Assembly (NCBI GenBank): GCA_902513955.1
Contig: CABXOW010000006.1
Coordinates: 1 to 62,284 of the forward strand
DNA: 62,284 nt
Direction: 5' to 3'
Source: an uncultured Pelagibacteraceae bacterium
Lineage (GTDB): Bacteria; Pseudomonadota; Alphaproteobacteria; Pelagibacterales; Pelagibacteraceae
Shown piece by piece: positions 4,046 to 34,654 of the stretch (within the stretch, counting starts at the first letter, position 1; every line of letters starts with the position of its first letter). A model generated the notes under the pieces. The model was not told the DNA's origin and did no database searches. It saw only the letters and a list, made by a program, of their open reading frames with translations. The position numbers were made by a program, and so were the translations under genes.

Positions 4046-5239
4046 TTATATTAAATTGTTAACTACCCATTTATGAAATTGATGGGTTGGTTGATCCATA
4101 ACTGGTGAAAAAATTCCACCATTATATACTGGTGAGCTTCTTCCCTCTTGCATTCCTTCTATTGCTTTTATGTCTTCTAACATTACATCCTTCCAAAACC
4201 TTGCGTTTTCTTTCCTTAATTCTTTCAATCCATCTCCATTAGCACTTTTATCTCCAACATAATACATTTGCATATGTTCTTTTGTTTTATTGGTTGCTAG
4301 TGGCTCTAACCAAAATACATAAAAATGATCTAAGTGCAAACCAATCATTACATTAGGAAATAATGCAATATATTCAGAATTTTTGAAAGATTTTTTTTCC
4401 CAATTACTAAATGTGTCAAATTTATTATTTCCTTTTACTGGCTGTTCATATTTTTCACTTCCTTGTCCTGCAAATCGATTTGGTAGCCCTTGTATGTGAT
4501 AATGATCATTAATATTTGATACTTTATTTAATTCTGGATGAATAGTTGGTAGATGGTAACTTTCACAATAATTTTCTATAGCAAATTTCCAATTACATTT
4601 AACTTCTAAATCAAAAGAACCGTAATCATTAGAATGAACTAATAGTTTTTGATCTTCGTGATTAATGAATTTAGACCATCTTTGTTCAAGTGGTTTAATA
4701 TAGTCTTCAAACTCTATTTCATTTTCATTAATATTCACAAAGATAATATCCATCCATATTTTAGATCTGACTTCTTTTAGGTTGCTACGATTCTTTTCAA
4801 ATTTATCTGAATTATGAATATTTAGACCTCCTATATGAGGAGTGGCCACTAAATTTCCTTTAAGATCATAAGACCAAGAATGATAAGGGCATCTAATTAC
4901 ATTTTTTAAAGTGCAAGATTCATCCAAAAGCTTGAAACCTCTGTGGCTACAAACATTATGAAATACTCTTATTTTAAGATCCTTGTCTCTTACAATAATT
5001 AAAGGAATCCCGAGTAGATTGTATGGTTTAGCATCTCCAGCGTTAGGTACTAAACTGCCAACCCCAATTACTGTCCATTTATCACAAAAAATCTTATCTC
5101 TTTCATACTCTAAATATTGTTCACTAGTGTAACATTGGTTTGGGAGCCCATTTGCAGCCCCAATAGGTTTATCTACATTCATCAATTTCTTAATATCCAA
5201 TATCTCTGAGAGAGGTTTATTTTTATGATTTTGATCCAT
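4046..5239 (-). CDS. Rieske [2Fe-2S] oxygenase alpha subunit, quaternary-amine-type candidate
   Basis: An upstream extension to 5416 overlaps the divergent MetF-like gene, so I place the start at the ATG at 5239 (397 aa), where homology to the family begins soon after. The Rieske centre is C97-x-H99 (CSHRG) and C117-x2-H120 (CPYHSW). The mononuclear iron site is H229 and H234 (SYHLPTIHPE). The bridging position three residues before H229 is Glu226, not the usual Asp. Glu here is known from carnitine monooxygenase CntA and related N-demethylating oxygenases. No reductase gene is adjacent. Divergent placement next to folate-dependent genes fits oxidative demethylation of a methylated compound, but the substrate is inferred. 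Confidence 0.8.
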   Translation of the reverse strand: MDQNHKNKPLSEILDIKKLMNVDKPIGAANGLPNQCYTSEQYLEYERDKIFCDKWTVIGVGSLVPNAGDAKPYNLLGIPLIIVRDKDLKIRVFHNVCSHRGFKLLDESCTLKNVIRCPYHSWSYDLKGNLVATPHIGGLNIHNSDKFEKNRSNLKEVRSKIWMDIIFVNINENEIEFEDYIKPLEQRWSKFINHEDQKLLVHSNDYGSFDLEVKCNWKFAIENYCESYHLPTIHPELNKVSNINDHYHIQGLPNRFAGQGSEKYEQPVKGNNKFDTFSNWEKKSFKNSEYIALFPNVMIGLHLDHFYVFWLEPLATNKTKEHMQMYYVGDKSANGDGLKELRKENARFWKDVMLEDIKAIEGMQEGRSSPVYNGGIFSPVMDQPTHQFHKWVVNNLI

Positions 5240-5342
5240 GAAAAAAATTACCATGGACATAATTTTTGGCAACAATTTTCCATATATAGCTATGCTGAAT
5301 TTCTTTGACAGCTTTTTCAAATAAGATAATGATCTGGAAAAA

Positions 5343-6071
5343 ATGAATTTTTCATTAGAAATTGGTCCACACACTGACCTTGAAACATTGCCTTCTGTAA
5401 AAGATGTATATGTCACAATGTTACCTGGTGGAGATTATAAAGAAACTGCTGACAAATCAGGAAACCTTGTTAAAAAAGGTTTTAATCCAGTTCCTCATTT
5501 TCCAGCAAGATCAATTAACAATGAGGAAGAATTAAAAGATTATGTTTCAAGATGTAAAGATCATGGTGTTAAACAGGCTTTAGTTATTGGTGGAAGTAGA
5601 GAACCAATAGGAAAGTTTGATAGTTCATATCAAATATTAGAAACAGGTTTTTTTGAAGGAATTAAAATTGGTATAGCAGGTCATCCAGAAGGAAGTCCCG
5701 ATATACCAGAACAGAATTTAGAAAAAGCAATGATAGATAAGAAGCCTTATGCTGATTATATAGTAACGCAATGGTTATTAGATAGTCAACCTATTGTTGA
5801 TTTCATTTCTAAACAAAGCGTACCAGTGCATGTTGGAATTACTGGGCCAATGAAAATATCTAGCTTAATAAAATTTGCTAATATTGTTGGGGCGAAAAAT
5901 TCCATTAACTTTCTTAAGTCTAATTTTACTAAGGCGTTAGATTTATTGAAACCTAAAGACCCTAATGATTTAATTGGGAAAGTTAAATCACATACTGATA
6001 ACTTCCACATTTATACATTCGGCGGCTTGAAGGAAACAAACAAGTGGTTGAAGGAGAATAGTTATGTCTAA
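5343..6071 (+). CDS. Methylenetetrahydrofolate reductase (MetF-like)
   Basis: A 242-aa TIM-barrel protein with MTHFR family marks: GHPEGSP at about residues 117-123, the TQWLLD segment (equivalent to the TQFFFD region of MetF) near 144, and the C-terminal HIYTFGG. It is shorter than typical MetF (about 290 aa). It would interconvert 5,10-methylene-THF and 5-methyl-THF. Its 3' end overlaps the next gene by 8 bp, and the next gene is a DmdA/GcvT-like methyltransferase that would make methyl- or methylene-THF, so this protein most likely processes the methyl group released by its partner, as metF does beside ligM or dmdA in other bacteria. Confidence 0.8.
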   Translation: MNFSLEIGPHTDLETLPSVKDVYVTMLPGGDYKETADKSGNLVKKGFNPVPHFPARSINNEEELKDYVSRCKDHGVKQALVIGGSREPIGKFDSSYQILETGFFEGIKIGIAGHPEGSPDIPEQNLEKAMIDKKPYADYIVTQWLLDSQPIVDFISKQSVPVHVGITGPMKISSLIKFANIVGAKNSINFLKSNFTKALDLLKPKDPNDLIGKVKSHTDNFHIYTFGGLKETNKWLKENSYV

Positions 6072-7422
6072 TGAATTTGACTATACTAAGTTAAAACATG
6101 TTACTTCAGTTGATCAATCAGATCGTGAAGTACCATACAATTTAAGACAAAGTGGGCCAACAAAAGTTGAAATGCTTATTTCAACAAGGGTAAGAAAATC
6201 ACCTTATTGGCATTTATCAATGCAGGCAGGTTGTTGGAGAGCAACCGTTTACAATCGTATTTATCACCCAAGAGGATATGTAAAACCAGAAGATGGTGGA
6301 GCAATGGTAGAGTATGATGCAATTGTAAATCACGTTACTATGTGGAACGTAGCTGTTGAAAGACAAATTAGAGTTAAGGGTCCTGATGCAGAAAAATTTA
6401 CTGACTACGTAATAACAAGAGACGCAACAAAAATTTCTCCAATGAGAGCAAGATACGTAATCTTGTGTAATGCGTATGGTGGAGTTTTAAATGATCCGAT
6501 TCTTCTAAGAATTTCTGAAGATGAATTTTGGTTTTCATTATCAGATTCTGATATTGGTATGTACCTTCAGGGTGTAAATGCTGATGGAAGATTTGATTGT
6601 ACTATTGAAGAAATTGATGCTTGTCCTGTACAAATTCAAGGACCTAAATCAAAAGCACTAATGAAAGATTTACTTGGTGATCAAGTTGATTTAGACAACA
6701 TGCCTTTTTATGGATTAGCTGAAGTTAAGGTTGCTGGAAGAAGTTGTGTTATTTCTCAATCAGGTTTCTCAGGTGAAGCTGGTTATGAAATATATTTAAG
6801 AAATGCTACTTTATATGCTGATGATATGTGGAATGCTGTTCTTGATGCTGGAAAAAAACATAACTTAATGGTTATTGCCCCTGCTCACCATAGAAGAATT
6901 CAAGCAGGAATTCTTTCATGGGGACAAGACATGGATCAACAACATAATCCATTTCAGTGTAACCTTGGTTATCAAGTTTCATTATCTGGTAAAGGTGAAT
7001 GGGATAAGAAAGCCGACTATGTTGGTAAAGCTGCATTAGAGAAAATGGGTGCTGAAATCAAAGATGGTAAAAAACCCTACAAACTTCAATTGGTTGGACT
7101 TGAATTAGGTGGCAAACCTATTGAAGAGTATGCTCCTGATTTTTGGTTAGTATCACCTGAAAGTGGTGGAGATCCAGTAGGATTCATTACATCCCCTTGG
7201 TATCACCCAGAGAAGAAGCAAAACATTGCAATGGGATATGTGCCGTTTGATGGAACTTTAAACTCGAATGGTTTTCCAAAAGGTAAAGTTGGAACTAAAT
7301 ATAAAGTTCATTTACCTGAAAAATACTCTGACACTCCAGGAACACCTGTTGATGCAGTAGTGGTGGATATTCCATTCAAAGAGTCTTTCAATGCAAATAC
7401 AAGGGAAGTTGTAAAAGGCTAA
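6064..7422 (+). CDS. DmdA/GcvT-like tetrahydrofolate-dependent demethylase
   Basis: A 452-aa protein of the GcvT fold. The region around residues 95-200 (MWNVAVERQIRVKGPDA, GGVLNDPILL, VQIQGPKS) resembles SAR11 DmdA, the THF-dependent DMSP demethylase, but the protein is about 80 aa longer than DmdA (about 370 aa) and has a different N-terminus with SPYWHLSMQAGCWRATVYN. It probably transfers a methyl group from a methylated substrate to THF; the substrate could be DMSP or another methylated compound. It overlaps the MetF-like gene upstream and is followed by a GC-rich hairpin terminator. I leave the symbol blank because true DmdA identity cannot be decided by eye. Confidence 0.75.
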   Translation: MSNEFDYTKLKHVTSVDQSDREVPYNLRQSGPTKVEMLISTRVRKSPYWHLSMQAGCWRATVYNRIYHPRGYVKPEDGGAMVEYDAIVNHVTMWNVAVERQIRVKGPDAEKFTDYVITRDATKISPMRARYVILCNAYGGVLNDPILLRISEDEFWFSLSDSDIGMYLQGVNADGRFDCTIEEIDACPVQIQGPKSKALMKDLLGDQVDLDNMPFYGLAEVKVAGRSCVISQSGFSGEAGYEIYLRNATLYADDMWNAVLDAGKKHNLMVIAPAHHRRIQAGILSWGQDMDQQHNPFQCNLGYQVSLSGKGEWDKKADYVGKAALEKMGAEIKDGKKPYKLQLVGLELGGKPIEEYAPDFWLVSPESGGDPVGFITSPWYHPEKKQNIAMGYVPFDGTLNSNGFPKGKVGTKYKVHLPEKYSDTPGTPVDAVVVDIPFKESFNANTREVVKG

Positions 7423-7468: not shown

Positions 7469-7579
7469 ATGACTAAAGGTTTTTTAATCGTAATTTGCAT
7501 TATCATTGCGATTGCTTTAATATTATTTCCACTATTAGTTTCGTATAAAGCGCAAAAAAATAAAAAGAATAAAAGTTAA
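7469..7579 (+). CDS. 36-aa single-pass membrane micropeptide
   Basis: A short frame from the ATG at 7469 to TAA at 7577-7579. It encodes about 20 hydrophobic residues (FLIVICIIIAIALILFPLLV) followed by a strongly basic tail rich in Lys and Asn. The stop codon overlaps the ATG of the YIP1-family gene (TAATG), the same coupling used by real gene pairs in this window. The positive-inside rule puts the basic tail in the cytoplasm. No family recognised. Its position right after a terminator suggests it opens the next transcription unit. Confidence 0.55.
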   Translation: MTKGFLIVICIIIAIALILFPLLVSYKAQKNKKNKS

Positions 7580-8121
7580 TGTTTGGTGAATTTTTAAATA
7601 TAGTTTTTAAATCAATTAAATTAGATAAATCTCTATACACAGATAAAAACTTTGGCGAAGCCTCAATTTATTTTGCTGGACTTATAATGATCTTAGATGG
7701 AATTGCAGGTGCTGTAGCAGCAAATACGGTTATCAAAACTGCAGTTGCAATGTCTGGACTTACATCAATTCTAACTTGGTTAGTTTGGGCTATCTTTATA
7801 TATGTTATTGGTGTTAAACTTTTTCCAGATAAGAAAACAAAAGTTCCCTTTAAAAAAGTGTTAACTGCTGTTGGCTTTGCTCATGCACCAGGTTTGCTAA
7901 GATTTTTTGCAGTAACACCTAATATGATGATTCCTATAATTTTTCTTACACAATTTTGGATTTTTGCAGGATTAATTATTTCTACCAAACAAGTACTAGG
8001 TCTAAAATCAAATATTAAATCTTTTGGAATAGTGTTTCTATCATTCTTAATAATAGCATTTTTATCTATTTCTTTTGTAATGAGTAGAATGAATATGCTG
8101 CCTGTAAATCAGCTAAGCTAA
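7579..8121 (+). CDS. YIP1-family membrane protein
   Basis: A 180-aa integral membrane protein with about five hydrophobic helices (around residues 28-50, 58-80, 92-112, 115-135, 145-167). The layout and the LFPDKKTKVPFKKVLTAVGF region, followed by HAPGLLRF, match bacterial Yip1-domain proteins. Function in bacteria is unknown. Translation is probably coupled to the 36-aa peptide gene. The stop overlaps the end of the convergent 55-aa gene by 4 bp. Confidence 0.65.
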   Translation: MFGEFLNIVFKSIKLDKSLYTDKNFGEASIYFAGLIMILDGIAGAVAANTVIKTAVAMSGLTSILTWLVWAIFIYVIGVKLFPDKKTKVPFKKVLTAVGFAHAPGLLRFFAVTPNMMIPIIFLTQFWIFAGLIISTKQVLGLKSNIKSFGIVFLSFLIIAFLSISFVMSRMNMLPVNQLS

Positions 8122-8285
8122 ATTGGAAAAATGGTCTTAGAAACTCTACAAGATGAACACAATTTATAACTAGTTAAAATTAAATTTTGAGAAACACTTT
8201 CGTCCTCCTTCTTGCACTCTTCACATATATTATTTAGCTCTTTAATAACTTCTTCGCCATATTTATCTTCTGATTTATCAGTCAT
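8118..8285 (-). CDS. 55-aa double-CxxC small protein
   Basis: A longer frame begins upstream, but the ATG at 8285 sits in an ATGACTGA overlap with the stop of the DUF3726-like gene, so I take it as the start. The 55-aa product is acidic in its first half and has two CxxC pairs (CEEC at about residues 20-23 and CSSC at 43-46), the layout of a small zinc-ribbon or a redox/iron-binding protein. No family recognised. It is the last gene of a four-gene minus-strand operon with an M19-like protein, a 553-aa unknown and a DUF3726-like protein. Confidence 0.6.
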   Translation of the reverse strand: MTDKSEDKYGEEVIKELNNICEECKKEDESVSQNLILTSYKLCSSCRVSKTIFPI

Positions 8286-8889
8286 TATCTGTAAGTCCTG
8301 CCCCTGCTGCACCTTGTTTTAGGCTTTCGCTTTCCTCAACAAAAGTATTTTCAGCCAGTTTGTAAAGGCTATTCCACTCTGTCTCAGTGAAATTATCTTG
8401 ATTATTAACAAATTTGATCTCAATTTCATTTGCAAATTCAGGAAACTCTTGATTTAAAAAACTTGAAAAAATATTTACATTTAAGTTAAGTAAAATTTCA
8501 TTTTGATCAAATCTGGCATGAATTTTTTTTCCACTAATTTCTGAAGCTCTACTTAAGAATGATAAAAAAAGAATTGGGTATGCAATATTTTTAAAGTTAA
8601 TTGTCTTTAAATTTTCTAATGATTTTATTTGATCTAAAAAACTAATACCAAGTATAATTGGGCAATAGGGTTCTGATGATGCTACATTTTTTTCACTAAT
8701 TAAATTTAAATCTTCAAATTTTTTTGTCGTTTTATCTTTATAATATTTATTTAAGTTTTTAATTCCCTCTAATCCAAACAACTCTAACTGTCGTACTGAT
8801 TTTCCAACTTCTTCAGAGACACCCCATGAAAAACCAGTTGCTTTACTTGCTCTTTTAACTGCAGTTTCAATTTCGCTTAAAGATCTCAT
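8278..8889 (-). CDS. DUF3726-like protein
   Basis: A 203-aa cytosolic protein. The N-terminus (MRSLSEIETAVKRASKATGF, then SWGVSEEVGKSVRQLE) resembles the DUF3726 family of marine alphaproteobacteria as I recall it; function unknown. No signal peptide or membrane helix. It lies 2 bp downstream of the 553-aa unknown and overlaps the 55-aa CxxC gene, so the three are almost certainly one operon with the M19-like gene. Confidence 0.55.
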   Translation of the reverse strand: MRSLSEIETAVKRASKATGFSWGVSEEVGKSVRQLELFGLEGIKNLNKYYKDKTTKKFEDLNLISEKNVASSEPYCPIILGISFLDQIKSLENLKTINFKNIAYPILFLSFLSRASEISGKKIHARFDQNEILLNLNVNIFSSFLNQEFPEFANEIEIKFVNNQDNFTETEWNSLYKLAENTFVEESESLKQGAAGAGLTDND

Positions 8890-8891
8890 TA

Positions 8892-10553
8892 TTAATTAAT
8901 AGTTTTGTATACCCATTGCTCATCATGGTTTTTTAATTCACTTGGTAATGGTGCTCCTTGAAACATACAAATTCTTAACCATTTATCTGATCTTGGATCA
9001 AACTTTAATGCTCCAAAAAATGACAATTTAAGTCTAAGCATATCAATAGGTACAATACTTTTACCAATTGTATTGTCTTGAATTTCAGAATATGGAAATT
9101 TTTCTATGATAAAAGCTCTTCTTACTACGTGTCTTAGTTCTGAGTTTGCAGATAAAAATTGAGCAATTGTTGAGTCATTTTTTTCTGATAATAATTTTTC
9201 ATACAATTTTTTCACATCTCTTGCAATTGCAAGTGGTTGCTCAAGTTCAGACCCATGTTCCTCAAATCTATCTGCTAATCTAGGTTCCTCTTTATTTTTA
9301 GATATAAACCAAAAATTTTGATAATTTTCTTTTTGATCAAAATTAATTTTTAAAATACTTGAATATCTAGTTTCAATTATATCCATTAATTCTTTTGTTG
9401 TTCGATTAGCTGGAATATTAAAATACTTATCTTCATCAGAACTCATATTAGCAACTAAAGGCTTAATTATGTTGTTATAAGGCTCCATCATAATAGATAC
9501 AATGTATTCTATACATTCTTCACATGAATTTTTTTCTAACCACAAATATATTTCATTAAATGCATATTTAATTTTAAAATCAAAATTATTTTCAATATAA
9601 TTTATAAATTTCTCAACATCTTTTAATAATGCTTTAATCTTTATTTGCTGGTATTCGCTATCTGTATTCCAGCTAGTAATATTTTTTAAAGACTTTTTTA
9701 CACAATCAATAAAAAGTTCACTGTCTTTATTTTTAACAACTTTAATTTCTCTAATTTTCTTTAACGCTGTTTCTCTGCTTAAAATCCAATTATTTAATAA
9801 TGTTGGATGATTAACTATAAAAGGAGCCATCCCAAGGCCAGTCGAGTTACCAATACCTAAATTTTTACAAATTTGCTCGTCTAATTTAACTGCTTTTTTA
9901 GGGTTTTTATAATGAGCCACGTGATTGACCTGATCAAACGTAAATTGTCTTACGAGATAAACTAACATCATTTCTAATCTGAAAGGACCATTAATTTCTT
10001 CTCTATTTTTAATTCTAAATCTATCAGCAAGCCCAAATTTTCCAGATCCATAAACTGCTGTAGTTCTGTATAAATAACCAACTTTTGATAATAAATCTAA
10101 ATCAGGCTGATTACCTTCGCTCAAACTTTCTACAACATGATTGAAAACTCTTACAGATTTATTAGCTCTTGATAAAGTTAATTCCTTAAACGAAAGTCTG
10201 CCTACTTCCTGTTTTGGAACCTCATTTTTTAATCTTTTAATATCATCTGAACTTGGAATGCCATCATGTAATGTAAATGCTGAATCCCACTTAGTAGCTA
10301 TAACTCTATCAGATCTTTCTTCATCTTTAATTTCATTAGCAAAACAAACTAATGAATAAACTCTACTCTTTTTTTTAAATGAGTAGACTGCTTCTCCGAA
10401 TCCATTTTGATCAAGATTAAATAAATCTCTTTTATAATCCCAATCTTTAAACTCGCTGAGAAAACTTCTTAAAAATGATAATTTTGACTGATGGAATGAT
10501 CCCAATCTTGATAATTTCATTATTGTATTTGGATCTCTTAGCTCAACTTTCAT
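8892..10553 (-). CDS. Conserved 553-aa protein of unknown function
   Basis: I do not recognise this protein. It is soluble, without signal peptide or membrane helix, and looks mainly alpha-helical with several charged stretches. Segments that look conserved are GYLYRTTAVYGSGKFGLADR (about residues 166-185), GNSTGLGMAPFIVNHPTLLN (about 236-255) and a C-terminal LRHVVRRAFIIEKFPYSEIQ. The start ATG lies 2 bp downstream of the M19-like stop, and the DUF3726-like gene follows after 2 bp. Such spacing argues for a shared pathway, possibly one acting on a peptide or amide substrate. No nucleotide-binding or metal motif could be assigned with confidence. Confidence 0.7.
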   Translation of the reverse strand: MKVELRDPNTIMKLSRLGSFHQSKLSFLRSFLSEFKDWDYKRDLFNLDQNGFGEAVYSFKKKSRVYSLVCFANEIKDEERSDRVIATKWDSAFTLHDGIPSSDDIKRLKNEVPKQEVGRLSFKELTLSRANKSVRVFNHVVESLSEGNQPDLDLLSKVGYLYRTTAVYGSGKFGLADRFRIKNREEINGPFRLEMMLVYLVRQFTFDQVNHVAHYKNPKKAVKLDEQICKNLGIGNSTGLGMAPFIVNHPTLLNNWILSRETALKKIREIKVVKNKDSELFIDCVKKSLKNITSWNTDSEYQQIKIKALLKDVEKFINYIENNFDFKIKYAFNEIYLWLEKNSCEECIEYIVSIMMEPYNNIIKPLVANMSSDEDKYFNIPANRTTKELMDIIETRYSSILKINFDQKENYQNFWFISKNKEEPRLADRFEEHGSELEQPLAIARDVKKLYEKLLSEKNDSTIAQFLSANSELRHVVRRAFIIEKFPYSEIQDNTIGKSIVPIDMLRLKLSFFGALKFDPRSDKWLRICMFQGAPLPSELKNHDEQWVYKTIN

Positions 10554-10555
10554 AA

Positions 10556-11521
10556 TTAGATTAATTTATAAAAATTATACCAGTTGTTTCCTAGTATTCC
10601 TTGTGTCTCACTGTCTGAAAAACCTACTTTTTTAAGGCCGCTTTCAATATTTTTAAATCCTCTAGCATCTTCAAACCATTCTGGTTGTTTAGGAAAACCA
10701 GGTTTATTTTTAGATCCCTCTCCATAATTTTTACTTTTAGACCAAGTACCATTTCTCATCCATTCAACAACAGTATCAGGTTGATCCAAACAAAGATCGG
10801 AGCCAATGCCAATATTTTTTAAATCCATAATTTCAGCTGTTCTAGCAACCATTTCACAAAAACTTTCAATTGTGCAATTAGTGTTATCTTTTAAATGATG
10901 AGGATATAAGGATAACCCCAACATACCACCACTTTCACTTAGTGTTTTTAAAAGATCATTAGATTTATTTCTTTTTGCTGCATGCCAAAATGAAGGGTTT
11001 GCATGAGTGATTGCAATTGGCTTTTCACTTAATTCAATTGCATCAAATGTACTTTTTTCTGCTGAATGAGACATGTCAACAACTATACCTACTCTATTCA
11101 TTTCTTTTATCGCTTCACGACCAAAATTTGTTACTCCACTATCTATTTTTTCGTAACATCCCGTTGCAAGTAATGATTGGTTATTATAAGTAAGCTGCAT
11201 AAACCTACATCCTAAATCATGAACTTTTTCTACTAAATTAATATCATCTTCAATTGGTGAACAGTTTTGAAAACCAAAAAAAATTGCTGTTTTGTTTTCA
11301 GAATTTGCTTTTTCAATATCCTTATAGTCTCTTCCAAGGAATATTAAGTCGGTATTTTCAGAAAAAAGTACTTCCCATTTTTTAATTTCCTCTAAAAGTT
11401 CATGATAATCTTCATGATAAACAATTGTTATATGAACCGCATCAAGTCCAGCTGATCTATTATATTTAAATATTTTTCTAGACCAATTACAGTATTGTAG
11501 ATTATCAATTTTAAAATTCAT
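10556..11521 (-). CDS. Membrane-dipeptidase (M19)-like amidohydrolase with an incomplete metal site
   Basis: The frame opens at a TTG at 11542, but the ATG at 11521 is a better start (321 aa). The M19 fold is supported by DMSH (H152), ITHAN (H173), GIGSDLCLD and the C-terminal GNNW. In renal dipeptidase these His residues bind zinc, and the other ligands are an N-terminal HxD and a bridging Glu. Here the N-terminus reads IDNLQYCNW with no HxD, and the Glu position is Gln85 in GFQNCSPI. The binuclear centre is therefore at best partial. It is first in the 11.5-8.1 kb operon. It could have a single metal, an altered reaction, or a binding role. Confidence 0.75.
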   Translation of the reverse strand: MNFKIDNLQYCNWSRKIFKYNRSAGLDAVHITIVYHEDYHELLEEIKKWEVLFSENTDLIFLGRDYKDIEKANSENKTAIFFGFQNCSPIEDDINLVEKVHDLGCRFMQLTYNNQSLLATGCYEKIDSGVTNFGREAIKEMNRVGIVVDMSHSAEKSTFDAIELSEKPIAITHANPSFWHAAKRNKSNDLLKTLSESGGMLGLSLYPHHLKDNTNCTIESFCEMVARTAEIMDLKNIGIGSDLCLDQPDTVVEWMRNGTWSKSKNYGEGSKNKPGFPKQPEWFEDARGFKNIESGLKKVGFSDSETQGILGNNWYNFYKLI

Positions 11522-14445: not shown

Positions 14446-15192
14446 ATGATCGGCATTTTAGGTGGAATGGGAACACAAGCAGGTTTAGATTTTTGTAATA
14501 AACTTGCAATTTTAAATAGAGGGAAAATTGATCAAGAATACCCTTTATTTATTCTTTACAACAAATCCAATATACCAGGAAGACCAGAGTCTATAGGGGT
14601 ACAAACTAAAAATTTATTAAATAAATCTTCAAATAACTCAAGTAAAAAGAAATATAATAATGTTTTAAAAAGTTTACTTCATGGATGCAAGTTGCTTGAA
14701 AAAAATAAATGTAAATTTATTGTTATACCGTGCAATACAGCTCATTATTGGTTAGAAGATTTACAAAAAAAAATTAATATTCCTATTATAAATATGCCAA
14801 AAGAAGTTTTTAAATTTACAAAAAAAAATTGTAAGAAAAATTCAAAAGTCGGATTATTGGCTACTGAAGGAACTTTAAAAACTGGTGTGTATGATAAAAT
14901 TTTTAATAAAAATTATAATTTATTACAGCCATCACAAAAACTTCAAAAAAAATCAGTAAATAAAGCCATAAAATTAGTTAAGATGGGCAAAATTAAAGCA
15001 GCTGCAAAAGTAATAAAACCTGCGATTAACGAATTGATCAAAATGAAATGTAAAAAAATAATACTAGGCTGTACGGAGCTTCCAATTGCAATTTTTGCAT
15101 TTAAATCATTTAATAATGTAAAAACTTCTAAAATTTTTTTAGATCCTAATTTAATACTTGCAAATTCTGCAATGGCAAAACACAAAAGTTAA
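14446..15192 (+). CDS. Aspartate/glutamate racemase family protein
   Basis: 248 aa. The GILGGMGTQAGLDF start (residues 3-16), the first catalytic Cys in IPCNTAHYW (about residue 99) and the second in LGCTELPIAIF (about residue 208) match the Asp/Glu racemase family. It probably racemises or isomerises an acidic amino acid; exact specificity cannot be told. It is lysine-rich, as are many SAR11 proteins. A 146-aa unknown follows after 3 bp. Confidence 0.85.
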   Translation: MIGILGGMGTQAGLDFCNKLAILNRGKIDQEYPLFILYNKSNIPGRPESIGVQTKNLLNKSSNNSSKKKYNNVLKSLLHGCKLLEKNKCKFIVIPCNTAHYWLEDLQKKINIPIINMPKEVFKFTKKNCKKNSKVGLLATEGTLKTGVYDKIFNKNYNLLQPSQKLQKKSVNKAIKLVKMGKIKAAAKVIKPAINELIKMKCKKIILGCTELPIAIFAFKSFNNVKTSKIFLDPNLILANSAMAKHKS

Positions 15193-16895: not shown

Positions 16896-17051
16896 TTAGA
16901 ATGCTTTTGAATAGTAAATATATAAATTTGTTTGTGTCATATTTTCATAGGCTAATTCTTGATACTGAATAATAGAAGAAAATCTATTATTTGAAGATAA
17001 ATCATAATCAAAACCTAGGGAAACTACTGGACGAGTTTTTTTTACAAAGAT
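16896..17051 (-). pseudogene. Possible C-terminal fragment of an outer-membrane beta-barrel protein
   Basis: In the gap between the EamA gene and soxG, one minus-strand frame stays open for 51 codons and ends in TAA. It has no start codon. The translation has the alternating polar/hydrophobic pattern of beta strands (VVSLGFDYDL, RFSSIIQYQELAYEN, NLYIYYSKAF) and ends with Phe, as outer-membrane barrels do. It is in a different frame from soxG, whose stop it overlaps. It may be the remnant of a deleted porin-like gene or a chance open frame; I lean weakly to a remnant. Confidence 0.25.
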
Positions 17052-17629
17052 TTAAAACCAAACTCTAAGGATGCATCTGTAATAGAATGATAAAAAGATT
17101 CACCAAAACTTCTAAGAGCAAATAATCTTACTTTATCAGGATTGTCATCAAGCATATCAGCTGTGAATGCTATTCCATTATAAGTAGAATTTATTGAATT
17201 ATTTTTTTCTAAAGTGTTAAAATTAAAAGGACACCCTTTCTTTAAAACTTCTTTAGCATCTTGCCCTTCTATTTCAATTATAGCTTTTGAATGAGACAAG
17301 TCAGTTACAGCAAAATCTGTTTCTTTAAAATTTTGTGAAATATTTTTAAGTAAATCTTTTTTTGTTGAAACCAAAAGCCAATTTTTTGGTCCATTCCATA
17401 AAATTCTTGTATCATTATTGCTTATTACACTTAATGGCTCATCTTTTAATTTTAAACCATCCATATCAATACTTTCAAATGAAACTGTAGAATTTTTATA
17501 CTGAACTATTTGAACTATTAATAAATTCTTTATCTCAGATATTTTTAATAAATTATTTTCATTTTTACCTTCATGATCACCAAATTGACCTGTTGAATGA
17601 ACGTTTGCTAAAGCTGATATTAAACTCAT
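17042..17629 (-). CDS. soxG: Sarcosine oxidase gamma subunit (SoxG / MgdD-like)
   Basis: A 195-aa subunit of heterotetrameric sarcosine oxidase. The GcvT-like fold segment [16 protein letters not shown] and the [23 protein letters not shown] stretch are typical. It starts inside the end of soxA (ATGA overlap), the usual B-D-A-G order. It helps bind the folate-linked part of the enzyme. Because gmaS and mgsABC also occur in this window, the complex could be N-methylglutamate dehydrogenase (MgdABCD), which is built from the same subunits. Confidence 0.85.
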
Positions 17630-20622
17630 GATCTAACCCTTTCACCTTTTGGATCAACATAATGTGATGAAATTATCTCAACTGGGATTACTTTATTTTT
17701 AAGCGGAGACATCGCAAATAACTTTTCACCAATCATGTTTTTTCCATCTTTTAATATTGCTAAAGAAAATGGATTATCATGTTCAACACTCCAACAAGAA
17801 GCTGAAATATAACCTAATTTTGGATTTGGTAGTGGTGCATTTGAGTCTTTAACTAAATGCGATCCTTCTGGAATACTTGTTTTTTTATCTAAAGGAACAA
17901 CACCAACAACTTTTTGTCTATCTTCCGCTATAAATGCTTCTCTGTTTAAAGATCTTTTTCCAATAAAATCTTTCTTTTTACTTAATAAACCTTCAAGAGA
18001 ATTATCATAAGGTATTGTTCTTCCATCAAGTTCTGAACCTGCAACGTGTCCCATTTCAATTCTAAGGGTTGATAGTGCTTCTGTTCCATATGGTTGCACT
18101 TTAAATTCTTCTCCAATTTCCATAATTTTTTTCCACATAAAGTTTCCATTATCAGACTCAACATTCACTTCATAGGCAAGCTCGCCAGAAAAGGAAATTC
18201 TAAAAATTCTAGCTTTTACACCAAACAAGTCTCCTTCCATGTAACCCATAAAAGGTAAACCTTCATTTGAAACATCGGAATTTGGAAATAATTTTTGCAA
18301 TAAATCTCTTGATTTAGGACCAGCAATTGCAGCTCCTGCCCATTGCTCAGTAGTAGAGACCACATTTACATTTAATTCTGGCCAAACTAGTTGCAAATAA
18401 TATTCTAAATGTGAGAGCACATTTGCTGCTTGAGCGGTTGTTGTAGTCATATGATAGTGATTTTCTGAAATTCTTGTAGTTGTCCCATCATCCATAACAA
18501 TTCCATCTTCTCTCAACATCACACCGTATCTAGCTTTACCAACAGGTAATTTTAACCATGCATTGGTATAAACTCTATTAAGCAACTCTGCTACATCTGG
18601 TCCTTTAATATCTATTTTACCTAGTGTAGTTACATCACAAACACCTACATTTGTTCTTACATTTTTAGCTTCTCTTTTAGATCCTTCAAATAAATTTTCA
18701 TTTCCTTGTTTATAATAACGAGGTCTTAACCAAACTCCTGCATCAACAAATACAGCATTGTTTTTTTCATGCCATGAATGCATTGGAGATTTTCTTGTTG
18801 GTTTTGAATGTTTTCCAACCTCTCTTCCAACAATTGCACCTATTGATACTGGTGTATATGGTGGTCTAAAAGTAGTGTGACCAACAGCTGGCACAATTTT
18901 ATTTTCAATACTAGATACTAATTGTAAGCCATTTAAATTACTTGTTTTACCTTGGTCAGTTGCCATTCCAAGCGTGGTGTATCTTTTTACATGCTCAATT
19001 GATCGATAACCTTCTTTAAGCGCTATCTCAACATCTGAAACCGCTACATCATTTTGAAAATCTAAAAATCTTTTATAATTTTTTCCTTCAGGTAATGGTA
19101 CGCACCAAAATTTATCATGTGTTGTTGATTTTTTCTCAACAACGTTTGGAAAAGAAATTTTATTATCGTTGTTTGTAATTTTTTTCGATAATTCATGACC
19201 GGTTTCAAAAGAACTCTTTAATGTTTCATCTAAAGTATAAGTTCCATTTGCAGCGCCTAATGTTATTTCGTTTTGCTTTGATGTTCCTGAAACAAATGCA
19301 TCAATATCTTCATTAAATTTTGTTTTATTTCCTGATTGTGAAGCCAAATGAATTGTTGGTGTCCAAAAACCTGAAACACATATGCAATCACACTTAATAT
19401 TTTCTACAGCTCCAAGCTGTTCTTTATCATCTGAAATCTTTGCTACATCTGCTGATTTTACTTTTTTATAACCTTGAGCAGCTACTACTACATAAGAAAA
19501 CTTAATGTTTATTCCTAAATTTTTTGCTTCATCAACTATTTCAGATTGAGGATCCTTTCTTGTATCTAAGATAATTGGATCAACACCATTTTTTTTAAAT
19601 TCAATTGCAGTTTCATAACCACTATCATTGTTGGTAAATATTAAAGGATTTCTTCCAACTAATACTCCATAAACTTTAAGATATTCTTTCGCTGCCGATG
19701 AAAGTATTACGCCTGGCGTGTCATTGTTACCAAAAACTATAGGTCTTTCAATTGAACCTGAAGAAATTAAAACTTCTTTTGCTCTGATATACCAAAGTCT
19801 TTGTTTTGGATGAAACTTTTTAGTTTTTGGTAAATGATCGCTAATTCTTTCAGACATCACCAACATATTATGATCATAATAACCAAAGACCTGTGATCTA
19901 TTTTTAACAGTCACATTTGGCATTTCTTTAAGTTCGGCAATAATTCCTTCAGCCCATTCTTTTCCTGATTGATTACCAATATTTACTTCACTTGTAAGCA
20001 GCGTTCCGCCAAATCTAGGTTTGTCTTCAGCTAAGATAACTCGAGCTCCATTTTTTGCTGCAGCATATGCGCTTGCAAGCCCTGATGGTCCTGAACCTAC
20101 AATTAATAAATCACAATACTCATATTTGTGTTCGTATCTTTCTTTGTCATGTTTGGTAGATACAACACCAAAACCTGCTGCTTTTCTAATGAATGGTTCA
20201 TAAACTTTATACCAAAAGCTTTTTGGCCACATAAATGTCTTGTAATAAAACCCTGCATGAAGAAATATTCTAAAAAAATTATTTATCGCTCCAATGTCAA
20301 AATTGACACTTGGCCAGCAATTTACACTTGTTGCCTCTAAACCTTCAAAAAGTTCTTGTTCTGTAGCTTTTATATTAGGTTCAGTCTCACCATTTCTATA
20401 TAATTGAACAACTGCATAAGGTTCGTCTACACCAGCACCAAAAAAACCTCTTGGTCTATGATATTTAAAACTTCTGCCAACTAAGTGAACTCCATTTGCT
20501 ATTAATGCTGATGCTAGAGTGTCTCCTTCATAACCATAATAAGTTTTACCATTAAATTTAAATGAAAGTTTTTTATCTTTATTAATTAATCCAACATTTT
20601 CTAATCTAAAACTTTGAGTCAT
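17626..20622 (-). CDS. soxA: Sarcosine oxidase alpha subunit (SoxA / MgdC-like)
   Basis: A 998-aa multidomain subunit. Order: an N-terminal ferredoxin-like segment (about residues 15-100), an NAD/FAD-binding domain with [18 protein letters not shown] (about 175-192), and a C-terminal GcvT-type folate domain from about residue 610 ([20 protein letters not shown]) to the end. It takes electrons and the methyl carbon from the beta subunit and yields 5,10-methylene-THF. Length matches the family (about 970-1000 aa). It is coupled to soxD (TAATG) and soxG (ATGA). The substrate may be sarcosine or N-methylglutamate. Confidence 0.92.
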
Positions 20623-20891
20623 TATGAAATATCCTCATTAGCTTTTAATGTGTTAAAAATTTCATGAGTAGCTGTGTCTCTTTCAACTTTTATCCACTGT
20701 CTGCACCCTGATAAATGTTGCCATAACTCTAAATGTTTTCCTCTTAAACTTTTTCTATTGTAAACAAAATTATTCCAATCTTGATCTGATATTTCTTTGT
20801 TAAGTTCAGGTCTTTTAACAGTTGCATCTCCTCCATAAGAAAACTCATTTTGTGATCTTATTCCACAGTGAGGACATTTAATATGAAGCAT
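20622..20891 (-). CDS. soxD: Sarcosine oxidase delta subunit (SoxD / MgdB-like)
   Basis: An 89-aa protein starting MLHIKCPHCGIRSQNEF, with the CxxC zinc-binding pair at residues 6-9 and the C-terminal region containing GCRQWIKVERDTATHEI that is typical of SoxD. It binds zinc and stabilises the tetramer. Its stop overlaps the soxA start (TAATG), and its ATG directly follows the soxB stop. Confidence 0.92.
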   Translation of the reverse strand: MLHIKCPHCGIRSQNEFSYGGDATVKRPELNKEISDQDWNNFVYNRKSLRGKHLELWQHLSGCRQWIKVERDTATHEIFNTLKANEDIS

Positions 20892-22148
20892 TTATGAAAT
20901 CCAAGTTTTAGTACCAAGTCCTTTTTCATCAAGTAAGTGACCTGTGTTAAATCTATTTAAACTATAACCGGCATTTAATTTATGAACTCTATCTTGTGCT
21001 ATAGTATGTGCAAATGTCCAGCCTGATGCTGGAGTTGCTTTAAATCCACCGTAACACCAACCACAATTTAAATATAATCCTTCAATATGTGTTTTATCTA
21101 TTATTGGTGAACCATCCATAGACATATCCATAATACCGCCCCATGTTCTAAGCATTTTTAATTTGCTTAAAAATGGCATCATCGCAATTCCCTCTGTTAA
21201 TACATGTTGTAAAGTTGGTAAGTTTCCTCTTTGAGCATAACTATTGTAACCATCTAAGTCACCACCCATCACCATTTCACCCTTGTCTGATTGACTTATA
21301 TAAAAATGTCCAGCTCCAAAAGTAACTACTCTATCTAAAACTGGTTTAACTGGTTCTGAAACACAAGCTTGAAGTAAATGAGTTTCTACTGGCAGTGTCA
21401 TATTTAATTTTTCAGCAAGTATATTTGTACTTCCTGCAACACATAATCCAATTTTTTTAACTTTAATGTCTCCTCTTGAAGTTCTTACTCCATTAATTTT
21501 TCCTCCACTTATATCAAAACCTGTTACTTCACAGTTTTGAATTATATCCACACCCATAGAGTCAGCCTGACGCGCATAACCCCAAGCTACAGCATCGTGT
21601 CTTGCAGTTCCTGCACTAGGTTGCATCAAACCTCCAAATATAGGAAATCTTACGTTTTCTGAAAAATCTGCCATTGGAATGATTTCTTTTACCTGCTCTC
21701 TATTTAACAATATTGCATCTATTCCATTCAATCGCATAGAGTTTCCTCTTCTAGCATAAACATTCATTTGAGCATCTGAATGTGCAAGATTGATAATTCC
21801 TCTTGGAGAAAACATTACATTGTAGTTTAAATCTTGACTCATCTTTCTCCAGAGATCCATTCCAAACTCACTGAAGTGAGCGTTATCGTCATACATGTAA
21901 TTTGATCGAATAATAGTAGTATTTCGCCCTACGTTTCCACCACCTATCCAGCCTTTTTCTATAATTGCAACGTTAGTAATGTTGTGCTCTTTGGCTAAAT
22001 AATATGCTGTTGCTAAACCATGACCTCCACCTCCAATGATCACAACATCATATTCTTTCTTAGGTGTGGGATCTTTCCAAGCTAAATCCCAATTTTGATC
22101 TTTGAAAAATGCATTTTTAACTAAATTAAATATAGAATATTTTTGCAT
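20892..22148 (-). CDS. soxB: Sarcosine oxidase beta subunit (SoxB / MgdA-like)
   Basis: A 418-aa FAD-dependent amine oxidase. The dinucleotide-binding IIGGGGHGLATAYYLAKEHN is at about residues 36-55, RNTTIIRSNY (about 75-84) is the FAD-binding region seen in SoxB, and CGWCYGGFKATPASGW near residue 372 contains the C-terminal active-site segment. It oxidises the N-methyl group of sarcosine, or of N-methylglutamate in MgdA. First gene of the operon, divergent from fhs across 128 bp, so amine oxidation and formyl-THF synthesis may share a control region. Confidence 0.92.
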   Translation of the reverse strand: MQKYSIFNLVKNAFFKDQNWDLAWKDPTPKKEYDVVIIGGGGHGLATAYYLAKEHNITNVAIIEKGWIGGGNVGRNTTIIRSNYMYDDNAHFSEFGMDLWRKMSQDLNYNVMFSPRGIINLAHSDAQMNVYARRGNSMRLNGIDAILLNREQVKEIIPMADFSENVRFPIFGGLMQPSAGTARHDAVAWGYARQADSMGVDIIQNCEVTGFDISGGKINGVRTSRGDIKVKKIGLCVAGSTNILAEKLNMTLPVETHLLQACVSEPVKPVLDRVVTFGAGHFYISQSDKGEMVMGGDLDGYNSYAQRGNLPTLQHVLTEGIAMMPFLSKLKMLRTWGGIMDMSMDGSPIIDKTHIEGLYLNCGWCYGGFKATPASGWTFAHTIAQDRVHKLNAGYSLNRFNTGHLLDEKGLGTKTWIS

Positions 22149-28431: not shown

Positions 28432-28524
28432 AAATTCTCTCTTTAGTTAGATTTTTTCATTGTAATTTTCAGAAAATTGTTAGTAAAGTAGATTTATAAA
28501 ATTATTAAATTGGAGATCATATTT

Positions 28525-29856
28525 ATGACTAAAGTTGCTATAATTGGAGCTGGACCTTGTGGTTTATCAATGCTTAGATCATTTGAACAAGCTGAAAAAA
28601 AAGGCGAAAAAATACCTGAAATAGTTTGTTTTGATAAACAAGAAGATTGGGGTGGTCTTTGGAATTATAGCTGGAGAACAGGCTCTGATCAATATGGAGA
28701 TCCAGTTCCTAATAGCATGTATAGATATCTTTGGTCAAATGGACCTAAAGAATGTTTAGAATTTGCTGATTATTCATTTGATGAACATTTTGGAAAACCA
28801 ATTCCTTCCTTTCCTCCAAGAGAAGTTTTATATGATTATATATTGGGAAGAGTCAAAAAAGGTAATCTTAAAAATAAAGTAAAATTTAATCATAGCGTAA
28901 CTAATACTTCTTTTGATGGTAAAAAATTTGAAGTCACTTATCGTGATAAAAAAAATAATACAATTTCAAAAGATATTTTTGATTATGTTGTTGTTTCAAC
29001 TGGTCACTTCTCAGTTCCATTTATTCCTGAATATGCGGGAATGAAATCTTTTCCTGGAAGAATTATGCATTCTCATGATTTTAGAGATGCAGAAGAATTT
29101 AGAGATAAGAATGTTGTAGTTTTAGGAAGCAGTTACTCTGCTGAAGATGTTGCTCTTCAATGTCATAAGTATGGAGCAAAAAGTGTAACTATAGGTTACA
29201 GACATAATGCGATGGGTTTTAAATGGCCTAAAGGCATGAAAGAAGTTTTTCATCTTGATAGGCTTGAGGGTGCTAAAGCAATTTTTAAAGATGGTCATGA
29301 ACAAGAAGTTGATGCGATAATTTTATGTACTGGTTATCTTCATCATTTTCCATTTTTATCAGAAGAATTAAAACTTCAAACAACCAATAGATTGTATCCA
29401 CCAATGTTATACAAGGGTGTTCTGTGGCAAAACAATCACAAACTTTTATATCTTGGCATGCAAGACCAATTTCACACATTCAACATGTTCGATTGTCAAG
29501 CTTGGTTTGCAAGAGATGTAATAATGGAAAAAATTAAAATTCCAAATAAATCAGAAATAGAAAAAGATATTAATAAATGGGTATCAATGGAAGAAAAATT
29601 AGAAAACCCAGATCAAATGATTGATTTTCAAACTGAATACACAAAAGAACTTCACAGTTTATCAGACTATCCAAAAATTGATTTTGAATTAATAAGGAAG
29701 CATTTTAAAGAATGGGAGCACCATAAAGTTGAAGATATAATGACTTATAGAAATAAATCTTTTTCTTCACCTGTTACTGGTTCTGTTGCTCCTGTGCATC
29801 ACACTCCTTGGGAAACAGCAATGGACGATTCTTTAAAAACTTTTTTAAATAAATAG
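28525..29856 (+). CDS. tmm: Trimethylamine monooxygenase
   Basis: The frame opens at a TTG (28510), but the ATG at 28525 has a GGAG ribosome-binding site nine bases upstream (28512-28515), so I use it (443 aa). FAD-binding GAGPCGLS is at about residues 8-15, the FMO signature reads FPGRIMHSHDF (about 174-184), and the NADPH loop is LGSSYSAEDVALQ (about 202-214). The whole protein matches bacterial Tmm, which oxidises trimethylamine to TMAO with NADPH and O2. The neighbouring TMAO transporter and tdm on the other side confirm the assignment. Confidence 0.93.
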   Translation: MTKVAIIGAGPCGLSMLRSFEQAEKKGEKIPEIVCFDKQEDWGGLWNYSWRTGSDQYGDPVPNSMYRYLWSNGPKECLEFADYSFDEHFGKPIPSFPPREVLYDYILGRVKKGNLKNKVKFNHSVTNTSFDGKKFEVTYRDKKNNTISKDIFDYVVVSTGHFSVPFIPEYAGMKSFPGRIMHSHDFRDAEEFRDKNVVVLGSSYSAEDVALQCHKYGAKSVTIGYRHNAMGFKWPKGMKEVFHLDRLEGAKAIFKDGHEQEVDAIILCTGYLHHFPFLSEELKLQTTNRLYPPMLYKGVLWQNNHKLLYLGMQDQFHTFNMFDCQAWFARDVIMEKIKIPNKSEIEKDINKWVSMEEKLENPDQMIDFQTEYTKELHSLSDYPKIDFELIRKHFKEWEHHKVEDIMTYRNKSFSSPVTGSVAPVHHTPWETAMDDSLKTFLNK

Positions 29857-29879
29857 ATTAAATTTATAACAATTTTATT

Positions 29880-32033: not shown

Positions 32034-32036
32034 AAT

Positions 32037-33068
32037 TTAATTGCTATTTTTTCTTCCTCCAAAAACTGTATTAATTATTTTTGACGGATTAATAGAACCT
32101 ACGATTTGATTGTTATTATCTATTACAGCTACTGTTTTTTCTTGAGTTAGAATTTTTTCTGCAACATTTTCAATAATCTCATCTTTTGAAACTTTTAAAT
32201 CACTTAAATTATCAGAAGTAGCAGCCTCCATCACATCTTCAATTAATAAAACTTTTTCTCTAGGAACTTCTTCTGTAAATTTTCTCACATATTCGGTTGC
32301 TGGGTTAAGCACAATATTTGCTGGTGTGTCTAACTGTTCGATAATACCATCTTTCATAATTGCAATTCGATCAGCAAGCTTTAAAGCTTCATCAAAATCA
32401 TGGGTAATAAACATAATTGTTTTTTGCAATTTTTCTTGAAGTCTTAAAAACTCATCCTGCATTTCTTTTCGAATTAATGGATCTAATGCAGAAAAAGGTT
32501 CGTCCAAAAACCAAATATCTGGTTCTACAGCTAATGATCTTGCAATACCTACTCTTTGCTGTTGACCTCCCGAAAGCTCTCTTGGAAAATAGTTTTCTCT
32601 TCCATCAAGACCAACGAGCTTAACCATATCCATGGCTTTACTAATACTGTCCTCAGTTTTTATCCCCTTAATTTGGAGTGGAAATGCAATATTTTCTACA
32701 ACTGTTTTGTGAGGTAGTAGAGCAAAACTTTGAAAAACCATTCCCATTTTATTTCTTCTAAGATCAATTAGTTCTTTGTTATTTAATTGAAGTAAATCTT
32801 GACCCTCTATAAAAATTTTTCCACCCGTTGCATCTGTTAATCTAGAAATGCATCTAAGTAATGTAGATTTACCGGAGCCAGATAAACCCATTACAACTAG
32901 CATTTCTCCTTTTGAAACTTCAAAAGAGGCATTGTTGACTCCTACAATACAACCATTTTCTTGAAAAGTTTTTGCGTCTACATTACCATTTGCTTCTTCA
33001 AGCATTTTTTTAGAGTTTTCTCCAAAAATTTTGTAAACAGATTCACATTTGATTACGGGTTCAGACAT
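32037..33068 (-). CDS. tmoV: TMAO-type ABC transporter ATPase with CBS region
   Basis: A 343-aa ProV-type ATPase. Walker A GLSGSGKST is at about residues 61-69, the signature LSGGQQQRVGIARSLA at about 165-180, Walker B IWFLDEPFSALD at about 185-196. The C-terminal 90 residues have the shape of a CBS-type regulatory region, as in osmoprotectant transporters. It energises TmoW. Three bp separate it from tmoW and 61 bp from the upstream 183-aa gene. Confidence 0.9.
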   Translation of the reverse strand: MSEPVIKCESVYKIFGENSKKMLEEANGNVDAKTFQENGCIVGVNNASFEVSKGEMLVVMGLSGSGKSTLLRCISRLTDATGGKIFIEGQDLLQLNNKELIDLRRNKMGMVFQSFALLPHKTVVENIAFPLQIKGIKTEDSISKAMDMVKLVGLDGRENYFPRELSGGQQQRVGIARSLAVEPDIWFLDEPFSALDPLIRKEMQDEFLRLQEKLQKTIMFITHDFDEALKLADRIAIMKDGIIEQLDTPANIVLNPATEYVRKFTEEVPREKVLLIEDVMEAATSDNLSDLKVSKDEIIENVAEKILTQEKTVAVIDNNNQIVGSINPSKIINTVFGGRKNSN

Positions 33069-33129
33069 AATTTATAATCAGGTTATACGAAATTAAGATA
33101 AAATAAAATCTATATAATCTTCTTTCTCC

Positions 33130-33681
33130 TTAAAAATTTTTAATAAAATAAACTCTTGTGTCAATTCCAGTACTTAAAAAACTTAAAGCCTCACCACTTA
33201 CTGTGATTGTTTCATCTACACCTACATTTTTCCCACTAACCACAAACCCAGCAAGGCATTTATTTTTTTCTTCGTCCCATTTAACAAAAGTTTCACTAAT
33301 TTTATTACCATTCATTGTATAAATTTCATGAGCTCTATAATTTAAAAAATTTGCCCCCATAATTGCACGCTGTGGAATAAGTTTTGTGGCATTGCAAACT
33401 TTCTCATACACTTCATCGGTTAATCTAAAATGATCAGTTCCATCAAAAGATACTAAAATTCCTGAAGGCAAACTTGAGATTAGTTTATTGAGCTTTCTCT
33501 CTTGTGCTATTCTCTCTTCTTCTATTTTCATTTTAGCAACTAATTCATCTCCTTCTCCAAAAATATTATTTAATACAAAAAAAGATAAAAATATAATCAT
33601 CATTATTGCAACTAAACCTAAAAGTTGCTTAATAGCTTCCGGTAACTCTTTTATTTTATCTAAATAGTTTTCGTTTGACAT
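33130..33681 (-). CDS. Membrane-anchored periplasmic protein, unknown
   Basis: An extended frame begins at TTG 33708, but the ATG at 33681 overlaps the stop of the MORN gene (TAATG), so I take 183 aa. One transmembrane helix at about residues 20-40 follows a short cytoplasmic part; then a charged helical linker and a probable globular periplasmic domain with cysteines (CNAT, CLAGF). No family recognised. It lies within the tmoX-tmoV interval with the MORN and the 153-aa genes, and is the last of the three before tmoV. Confidence 0.65.
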   Translation of the reverse strand: MSNENYLDKIKELPEAIKQLLGLVAIMMIIFLSFFVLNNIFGEGDELVAKMKIEEERIAQERKLNKLISSLPSGILVSFDGTDHFRLTDEVYEKVCNATKLIPQRAIMGANFLNYRAHEIYTMNGNKISETFVKWDEEKNKCLAGFVVSGKNVGVDETITVSGEALSFLSTGIDTRVYFIKNF

Positions 33682-34058: not shown

Positions 34059-34092
34059 TTTAACATTTTACACAAATTTATTTAAAAAAAAA

Positions 34093-34554: not shown

Positions 34555-34595
34555 CAGGCTAATTTTTCATTTTTATTTCACTTAATGTAATCTTT

Positions 34596-34627: not shown

Positions 34628-34654
34628 GATCTATTAATTTGTTTGCTTTTAACC

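Follow-up and report, generated by a model that had tools for sequence, protein, structure and literature searches.

A conserved three-gene module of SAR11 bacteria that probably forms the core of a homarine catabolic operon

What common task could keep together a set of tightly packed genes, none of which has a clear known reaction? This question is raised by an operon in a 62,284-nucleotide stretch of DNA (referred to below as the window) that represents contig 6 (CABXOW010000006.1) of an uncultured Pelagibacteraceae bacterium (assembly GCA_902513955.1; 1.2 Mb in 38 contigs, 83% complete). The nearest named relatives of the window belong to Pelagibacteraceae and Pelagibacterales, that is, to SAR11, one of the most abundant groups of marine heterotrophs. 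The operon, located on the minus strand, starts with the gene for a peptidase M19-like protein (positions 10556 to 11521; 321 aa from its ATG, with an alternative upstream TTG start possible at 11542), which is followed by the genes for a 553-aa protein (8892 to 10553), a 203-aa DUF3726 protein (8278 to 8889), and a 55-aa protein with two CxxC motifs (8118 to 8285). The first-pass annotation of this DNA treated all four genes as an operon built on a degraded M19 dipeptidase and kept for a joint function, possibly in an undescribed pathway. The present analysis supports a joint function for the first three genes, which probably constitute the enzymatic core of an operon for the catabolism of homarine (N-methylpyridinium-2-carboxylate), pared down in SAR11.

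Gene order and phyletic distribution

As initially noted, the genes are separated by 2 bp (M19-like/553-aa) and 2 bp (553-aa/DUF3726) or overlap by 8 bp (DUF3726/CxxC). This tight packing is not due to chance, because the spacings are nearly constant across 80 named SAR11 loci, which are the best 80 of the 570 or more loci detected when 84,980 species genomes were scanned and therefore all come from SAR11. The M19-like and 553-aa genes are present in 80 of these 80 loci each, the DUF3726 gene in 79 (the last one is cut there by a contig end), and the CxxC gene in 74. With the start codons picked by a script as those nearest to the starts in the window, the M19-like and 553-aa genes are −4 to +3 bp apart in all 80 loci, the 553-aa and DUF3726 genes −4 to +10 bp apart in 78 loci of 79 (the exception has 35 bp), and the DUF3726 and CxxC genes −8 bp apart in 73 of 74 (−14 bp in one). 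Two CxxC motifs are found in each of the 74 CxxC proteins.

In a closer sample, consisting of the source genome and 40 of its relatives, many of them incomplete, the 553-aa gene was detected in 26 of the 41 genomes, including 10 of the 16 near-complete ones; even within the genus, the module is patchy. At all 20 loci of this sample, the M19-like and DUF3726 genes adjoin the 553-aa gene in the same order, with the DUF3726 gene cut by a contig end in two of them. The CxxC gene, found in 13 of the 14 loci of the same genus (the window included) vs none of the 6 loci from the order's other family (two of them stop short of where the gene would be), was rejected as a component of the core. Judging from these sequences, it appears to be a lineage-specific addition of this SAR11 genus that stands outside the wider module. 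In three loci from the other family (L108 to L110), an aldehyde dehydrogenase (ALDH) gene is located 3 bp from the DUF3726 gene on the opposite strand and is followed by an ABC transporter, read as polyamine-type; the ALDH of L108 is just 33 to 36% identical to the roseobacter-type cluster ALDHs described below. A complete 1.2-Mb genome from another genus of the window's family (G138) encodes no matches to the 553-aa, DUF3726, soxA-type, or Ldh proteins.

At the level of the class, a survey of 240 Alphaproteobacteria genomes (threshold for the 553-aa protein, E ≤ 1e-20) recovered the 553-aa gene in 33 genomes and DUF3726 in 27, all of them among those 33. The DUF3726 gene is a constant neighbor: in 27 genomes of 27, it lies directly 3′ of the 553-aa gene, on the same strand and within 75 bp of its end, and DUF3726 matches were found in none of the 14 control genomes. 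Neighborhoods were compared at 30 loci from 29 of the 33 genomes (the source genome itself, G000, as well as G104, G117, and G128 were left out). The M19 gene is immediately adjacent to the 553-aa gene (≤250 bp, same strand) in 23 of the 30 loci; elsewhere, it is found behind a BCCT transporter gene (two loci), on the opposite strand at a distance of 55 bp (one locus), or 4.5 kb away (one locus). In most genomes, the three genes do not occur apart, and their synteny supports a conserved three-gene module with a joint function. The earlier suggestion of such a function is thus supported for the M19-like, 553-aa, and DUF3726 proteins; for the CxxC protein, and hence for the four genes as one unit, it is not.

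The 553-aa gene was also found in 29 of 398 Pseudomonadota genomes, 9 of which are from outside the class; neighborhoods were inspected for 5 of these 9, along with a Vibrio plasmid locus. All six loci (L191 and L194 to L198) combine the 553-aa gene with ALDH, M19, and BCCT genes, four contain a RidA-like gene, and five encode a DUF3726-like protein (three of these matches are weak). Four plasmid loci from roseobacters and Aminobacter all contain LysR, ALDH, M19-like, 553-aa, and DUF3726 genes, accompanied by BCCT (two loci), an Ldh-family enzyme (two loci), or a betaine ABC transporter (one locus), and in the genome G070 the genes for Ldh, ProXWV, ALDH, M19, 553-aa, and DUF3726 proteins form a single stretch. 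Phaeobacter, Sulfitobacter, and Ruegeria also carry the 553-aa gene; in Phaeobacter inhibens DSM 17395, it occurs at two sites of the 262-kb plasmid. Unlike in these other bacteria, no LysR, ALDH, Ldh, or transporter genes adjoin the module in the window.

The module also exists in a second, divergent form, with 553-like proteins that are 28 to 32% identical, which is represented in Sinorhizobium meliloti (on pSymB; L188), Neorhizobium, Bosea (L192), and Variovorax (L190), with L199 as a further locus. It includes an IclR regulator (in the named records), the 553-like protein, a small protein of 221 to 242 aa, an M19-like protein, and transporter genes; in Neorhizobium, the M19-like gene is split, and in a Mesorhizobium locus with the 553-like and small genes no M19 match was found. 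The small protein shows a weak match to the DUF3726 profile (E from 6e-6 to 2e-3 in a search with five sequences) and shares a C-terminal motif with it. In the M19 proteins of this form, the HxD motif is lost and Gln replaces Glu, and the second metal His is kept in two of the three that were aligned (L188 and L192). This form probably serves another substrate. Given that it exists in rhizobia, Bosea, and Variovorax, the three-protein module seems to be older than any single pathway.

The three proteins of the module

The M19-like protein has a strong match to the Pfam Peptidase_M19 family (240.5 bits, cut-off 26), and its description as a degraded member of this family proved correct. Of the five metal-ligand positions (HxD, Glu, His, and His), assigned, along with the residue roles, by reference to the work on renal dipeptidase, four are replaced: the window protein has Leu8 and Tyr10, Gln85, His173, and Ala182, so that one of the five is kept. 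The same holds for the module-linked M19 proteins in general. The bridging Glu is replaced by Gln in 41 of 41, the HxD His by Leu in all 40 that contain the region, and the second metal position is never His. At the same time, His152, His173, Asp242, Cys244, Glu37, and Arg256 are invariant in these 41 proteins. The M19-like protein appears to be conserved rather than decaying, because it retains 59 to 61% identity to its homologues in roseobacters and Aminobacter. Its best structure match was 2i5g (181.5 bits over query residues 6 to 323), which is presumably the Pseudomonas aeruginosa protein encoded ahead of dgcAB.

The DUF3726 protein matched its Pfam family with 70.6 bits (cut-off 22.1) and had no match to Pfam Ldh. 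Its structural model, with a predicted local distance difference test score (pLDDT) of 86.6, retrieved the type-2 malate/lactate dehydrogenases in VIA with Z of 8.6 to 10.6, and the first unrelated row had Z of 4.5; the best Foldseek E value was 0.011. An hhalign comparison with the Ldh enzymes of the fuller operons placed the N-terminal helices in register (probability 21%, E 0.001, 61 columns). The SHG and GGxKG motifs, which we take to be catalytic and NAD(P)-binding, respectively, in Ldh_2, are present in 10 of these 10 operon Ldh enzymes vs none of the 22 DUF3726 proteins. Going by the model, DUF3726 is probably a cut-down, inactive relative of Ldh that serves the 553-aa protein. No mention of DUF3726 or PA5396 was found in the literature searched.

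The 553-aa protein appears, from its sequence and its model, to have no recognized relative. It matched no Pfam family at E ≤ 1, gave a single chance-level row in NCBIfam, and, used as a single sequence or as a profile, found nothing credible in a sequence search of the PDB. Its model has a mean pLDDT of 74, and several of the most conserved stretches are the least confident ones, so the fold search (best Foldseek E 1.1, best VIA Z 3.2) says just that no match turned up. The two alignments behind the structure models (A4 and A5), made of the window proteins and those from related loci, were of low diversity, with 70 to 91% and 49 to 80% identity to the first row. Individually, the M19-like, 553-aa, and DUF3726 proteins still have no clear known reaction, as had been stated from the outset.

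Homarine and the competing substrates

The betaine carriers found with the module suggest a zwitterionic N-methyl substrate, and the presence of ALDH, Ldh, and RidA suggests aldehyde and imine intermediates. A further link comes from sarcosine oxidase and N-methylglutamate dehydrogenase. Members of the soxA family (TIGR01372, E ≤ 1e-150, with at most three candidates scored per genome) are encoded in 31 of the 33 class-survey genomes with the 553-aa gene vs 61 of the 207 without it (Fisher p 8e-13, with kinship ignored), and two or more copies in 29 of 33 vs 28 of 207 (p 2e-17, likewise). In the window, a separate minus-strand operon of this type (sox/mgd, 17042 to 22148) lies 5.5 kb from the three-gene module. 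It comprises the genes for gamma (17042 to 17629, assigned by position and size alone), alpha (17626 to 20622; 1306.6 bits, over the cut-off), and beta (20892 to 22148; 670 bits, over the cut-off), and alpha and gamma genes at least 50% identical to these are each present in the fetched flanks of 62 of the 80 SAR11 loci. The genome has a second soxA/mgdC-type copy on contig C20. Most likely, the fuller cluster and its soxA link are as expected for an N-methylated heterocyclic betaine whose ring is opened and whose end product is N-methylglutamate; homarine is a marine compound of this type. A role of Mgd in homarine catabolism is stated in PMC13390433, which cites Ferrer-Gonzalez et al. 2026 (Nat Microbiol 11:1531–1546). 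The label of an undescribed pathway probably does not apply, as the fuller cluster agrees with an operon for homarine catabolism that was reported in 2026.

From this gene set we infer a substrate, an order of steps, and a role for each protein. Homarine would be imported by a betaine-type transporter. PMC8269262 argues that homarine is an unlikely substrate for the trigonelline oxygenase TgnA/TgnB, which leads one to expect other enzymes for the opening of the ring. The best candidate is the 553-aa/DUF3726 pair, chosen because no known type of reaction has been linked to it: the 553-aa protein, accompanied by its constant small partner DUF3726, may attack the aromatic N-methylpyridinium ring. 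For a hydrolytic step, the best candidate is the M19-like protein, which might then finish the ring or C–N cleavage of an enamine, imine, or N-formyl intermediate; it retains what we take to be the carbonyl-polarizing His and the catalytic Asp, but not the two-zinc site. Where present, RidA could remove the reactive enamine or imine, ALDH could oxidize the semialdehyde, and the Ldh-family enzyme could reduce the N-methylimino acid to N-methylglutamate, which the sox/mgd-type dehydrogenase would convert to glutamate.

A bolder version of this scheme can be offered tentatively. The 553-aa protein, a catalytically dead Ldh-like DUF3726, and a zinc-less M19 protein might represent a new enzyme system, with no recognizable oxygenase, that dearomatizes and opens N-methylpyridinium carboxylates (in the rhizobial form, perhaps other N-heterocyclic carboxylates), equipped with various transporters and regulators depending on the substrate across the Alpha-, Beta-, and Gammaproteobacteria and reduced in SAR11 to three genes.

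Homarine is a plankton metabolite present in surface seawater; its corrected particulate concentrations ranged from 0.02 to 2.7 nM, and it made up as much as 0.25% of the particulate carbon along the transect in question (PMC10134881). If the module is indeed the SAR11 homarine core, a gene set annotated as "hypothetical/DUF3726/dipeptidase" gains a function in the flow of ocean carbon and nitrogen, and the chemistry of the zinc-less M19 protein, the 553-aa family, and the DUF becomes directly testable.

Several observations weigh against the assignment to homarine. The 553-aa gene is not universal in SAR11, being absent from 15 of the 41 genomes and 6 of the 16 near-complete ones, including a 92%-complete genome from the window's own genus (G009). 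In the class survey, DUF3726 could not be matched in 6 of the 33 genomes that carry the 553-aa gene, and no M19 gene was seen near the 553-aa gene in 3 of the 30 loci (L159, L179, and L185). The accessory genes are inconstant as well: within 8 kb, an ALDH (≥45% identical) was found at 8 of the 30 loci and an Ldh (≥40%) at 11, and a betaine transporter at 5. The window genome, 83% complete as it is, has no close counterpart of the cluster ALDHs (best identity 33%, with 28 to 36% for the 11 cluster ALDHs) or of the cluster Ldh (best 30%), and the order-level relative G025 lacks any Ldh match, so SAR11 must have other means for these steps. A match to soxA does not distinguish sarcosine oxidase from N-methylglutamate dehydrogenase, its co-occurrence with the 553-aa gene can reflect shared ancestry or a marine lifestyle, and it is missing from two of the genomes with the 553-aa gene (G076, 84% complete, and G114, 67% complete). 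Finally, the correction in PMC10134881 lowers the seawater homarine values of PMC8269262 25-fold and also withdraws the remark made there about Ruegeria growing on homarine.

Among the alternatives, the one that fares best, although it is still unlikely, assigns the module to an N-methylated betaine other than homarine (trigonelline, proline betaine, or some unidentified compound of the pyridinium or pyrrolidinium betaine type), degraded along the same lines, with attack on the ring, oxidation of an aldehyde, and reduction of an imine. The set of betaine transporters, ALDH, Ldh, and RidA would suit several betaines, and the divergent form in Sinorhizobium, Bosea, and Variovorax comes with other transporters and regulators, so substrates may vary. 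The corrected averages for particulate homarine are 0.07 and 0.6 nM (PMC10134881), and those for trigonelline are 0.07 and 0.14 nM (PMC8269262); homarine is thus equal to trigonelline or about four times as abundant, and abundance does not decide between them. However, trigonelline is opened by TgnA/TgnB, according to PMC8269262. TgnA/TgnB-like oxygenases were not noticed in the annotated roseobacter and Aminobacter clusters, although no search aimed at these oxygenases was made. The link to soxA/mgdC-type genes is also in line with an N-methyl amino acid as the product, and the trigonelline route is not known to yield one.

It is considerably less probable that the three genes serve the adjacent one-carbon cluster, for example, in the demethylation of glycine betaine or dimethylglycine. 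This cluster consists of a GcvT/DmdA-like gene (6064 to 7422; 231 bits against the DMSP [dimethylsulfoniopropionate] demethylase model, under its cut-off of 410), a methylenetetrahydrofolate reductase (MTHFR)-like gene that overlaps it by 8 bp (5343 to 6071), and a Rieske oxygenase gene (4046 to 5416), whose product is nearest to the glycine betaine monooxygenase model but, with 121 bits, far under the cut-off of 670. Counterparts at least 50% identical are found in the fetched flanks of 70 (GcvT-like), 68 (MTHFR-like), and 43 (Rieske) of the 80 SAR11 loci, and, according to PMC12093977, the gene located ahead of dgcAB in Vibrio natriegens and Pseudomonas aeruginosa is predicted to encode a dipeptidase. 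Against this, other bacteria have the module without these genes and with a LysR/ALDH/transporter set of their own, and in the window the GcvT pair and the operon converge, with another gene (7579 to 8121) between them; this gene encodes a 180-aa product without a Pfam family and overlaps the 3′ end of the CxxC gene by 4 bp.

That the M19-like protein is a working dipeptidase, in an operon for the degradation of a peptide or another ordinary amide, is hardly credible despite its strong Pfam match and was rejected, given the loss of metal ligands throughout the module-linked proteins and the presence of betaine transporters, not peptide transporters, next to the M19-like gene.

Other features of the window include purE, encoding 5-aminoimidazole ribonucleotide (AIR) carboxylase, the divergent neighbor upstream of the operon. 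An island of genes for methylated amines (28510 to 47741) contains the genes for trimethylamine monooxygenase (28510 to 29856) and trimethylamine N-oxide (TMAO) demethylase (35719 to 38046), both over their NCBIfam cut-offs, a glutamine synthetase-like gene (43037 to 44521, read as gmaS-like), glutamate synthase-like genes (44552 to 47741, read as mgsABC-like), and an ABC transporter read as betaine/TMAO-type. An amino acid racemase-like protein (14446 to 15192), which passes a general racemase model and scores 149 bits against the cysteate racemase cut-off of 190, is a possible organosulfur link.

Relation to known systems

Like the renal (membrane) M19 dipeptidases, the window protein has the M19 fold and keeps His152, His173, and Asp242, which we take to be the carbonyl-polarizing residue, a metal ligand, and the catalytic residue, respectively; the canonical two-zinc site of those enzymes is gone. 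The closer M19-like protein 2i5g, called an amidohydrolase, shares with it the loss of HxD and the change of Glu to Gln; unlike in 2i5g, the second metal His is also replaced in the window protein (Ala182). The DUF3726 model resembles the Ldh_2 protein 3uoe (Z 10.6, rmsd [root mean square deviation] 3.4, 160 aligned residues) and delta1-piperideine-2-carboxylate reductase, 1wtj, another Ldh_2 member (Z 9.1, rmsd 3.9, 163 aligned residues), but at 203 residues the DUF3726 protein is much shorter than these dehydrogenases, which have about 335.

At the level of pathways, the TgnABCDE route for trigonelline (Perchat 2018) has in common with the proposed scheme the opening of an N-methylpyridinium carboxylate, aldehyde oxidation, and hydrolysis, and differs from it in the protein families used. 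The nearest parallel is the homABCDER operon of Ferrer-Gonzalez et al., 2026, which reportedly occurs in SAR11, SAR116, and Rhodobacterales and is said to yield N-methylglutamate and glutamate. In the window, just the three core genes stand together; the operon lacks genes for LysR, ALDH, Ldh, and a transporter. The reported distribution in SAR11 and Rhodobacterales is matched by that of the module (80 Pelagibacteraceae and Pelagibacterales loci on the one hand and Phaeobacter, Sulfitobacter, and Ruegeria on the other), and the reported number of hom genes, including a regulator, resembles what is seen in the fuller cluster; the final use of N-methylglutamate dehydrogenase would be a further point in common.

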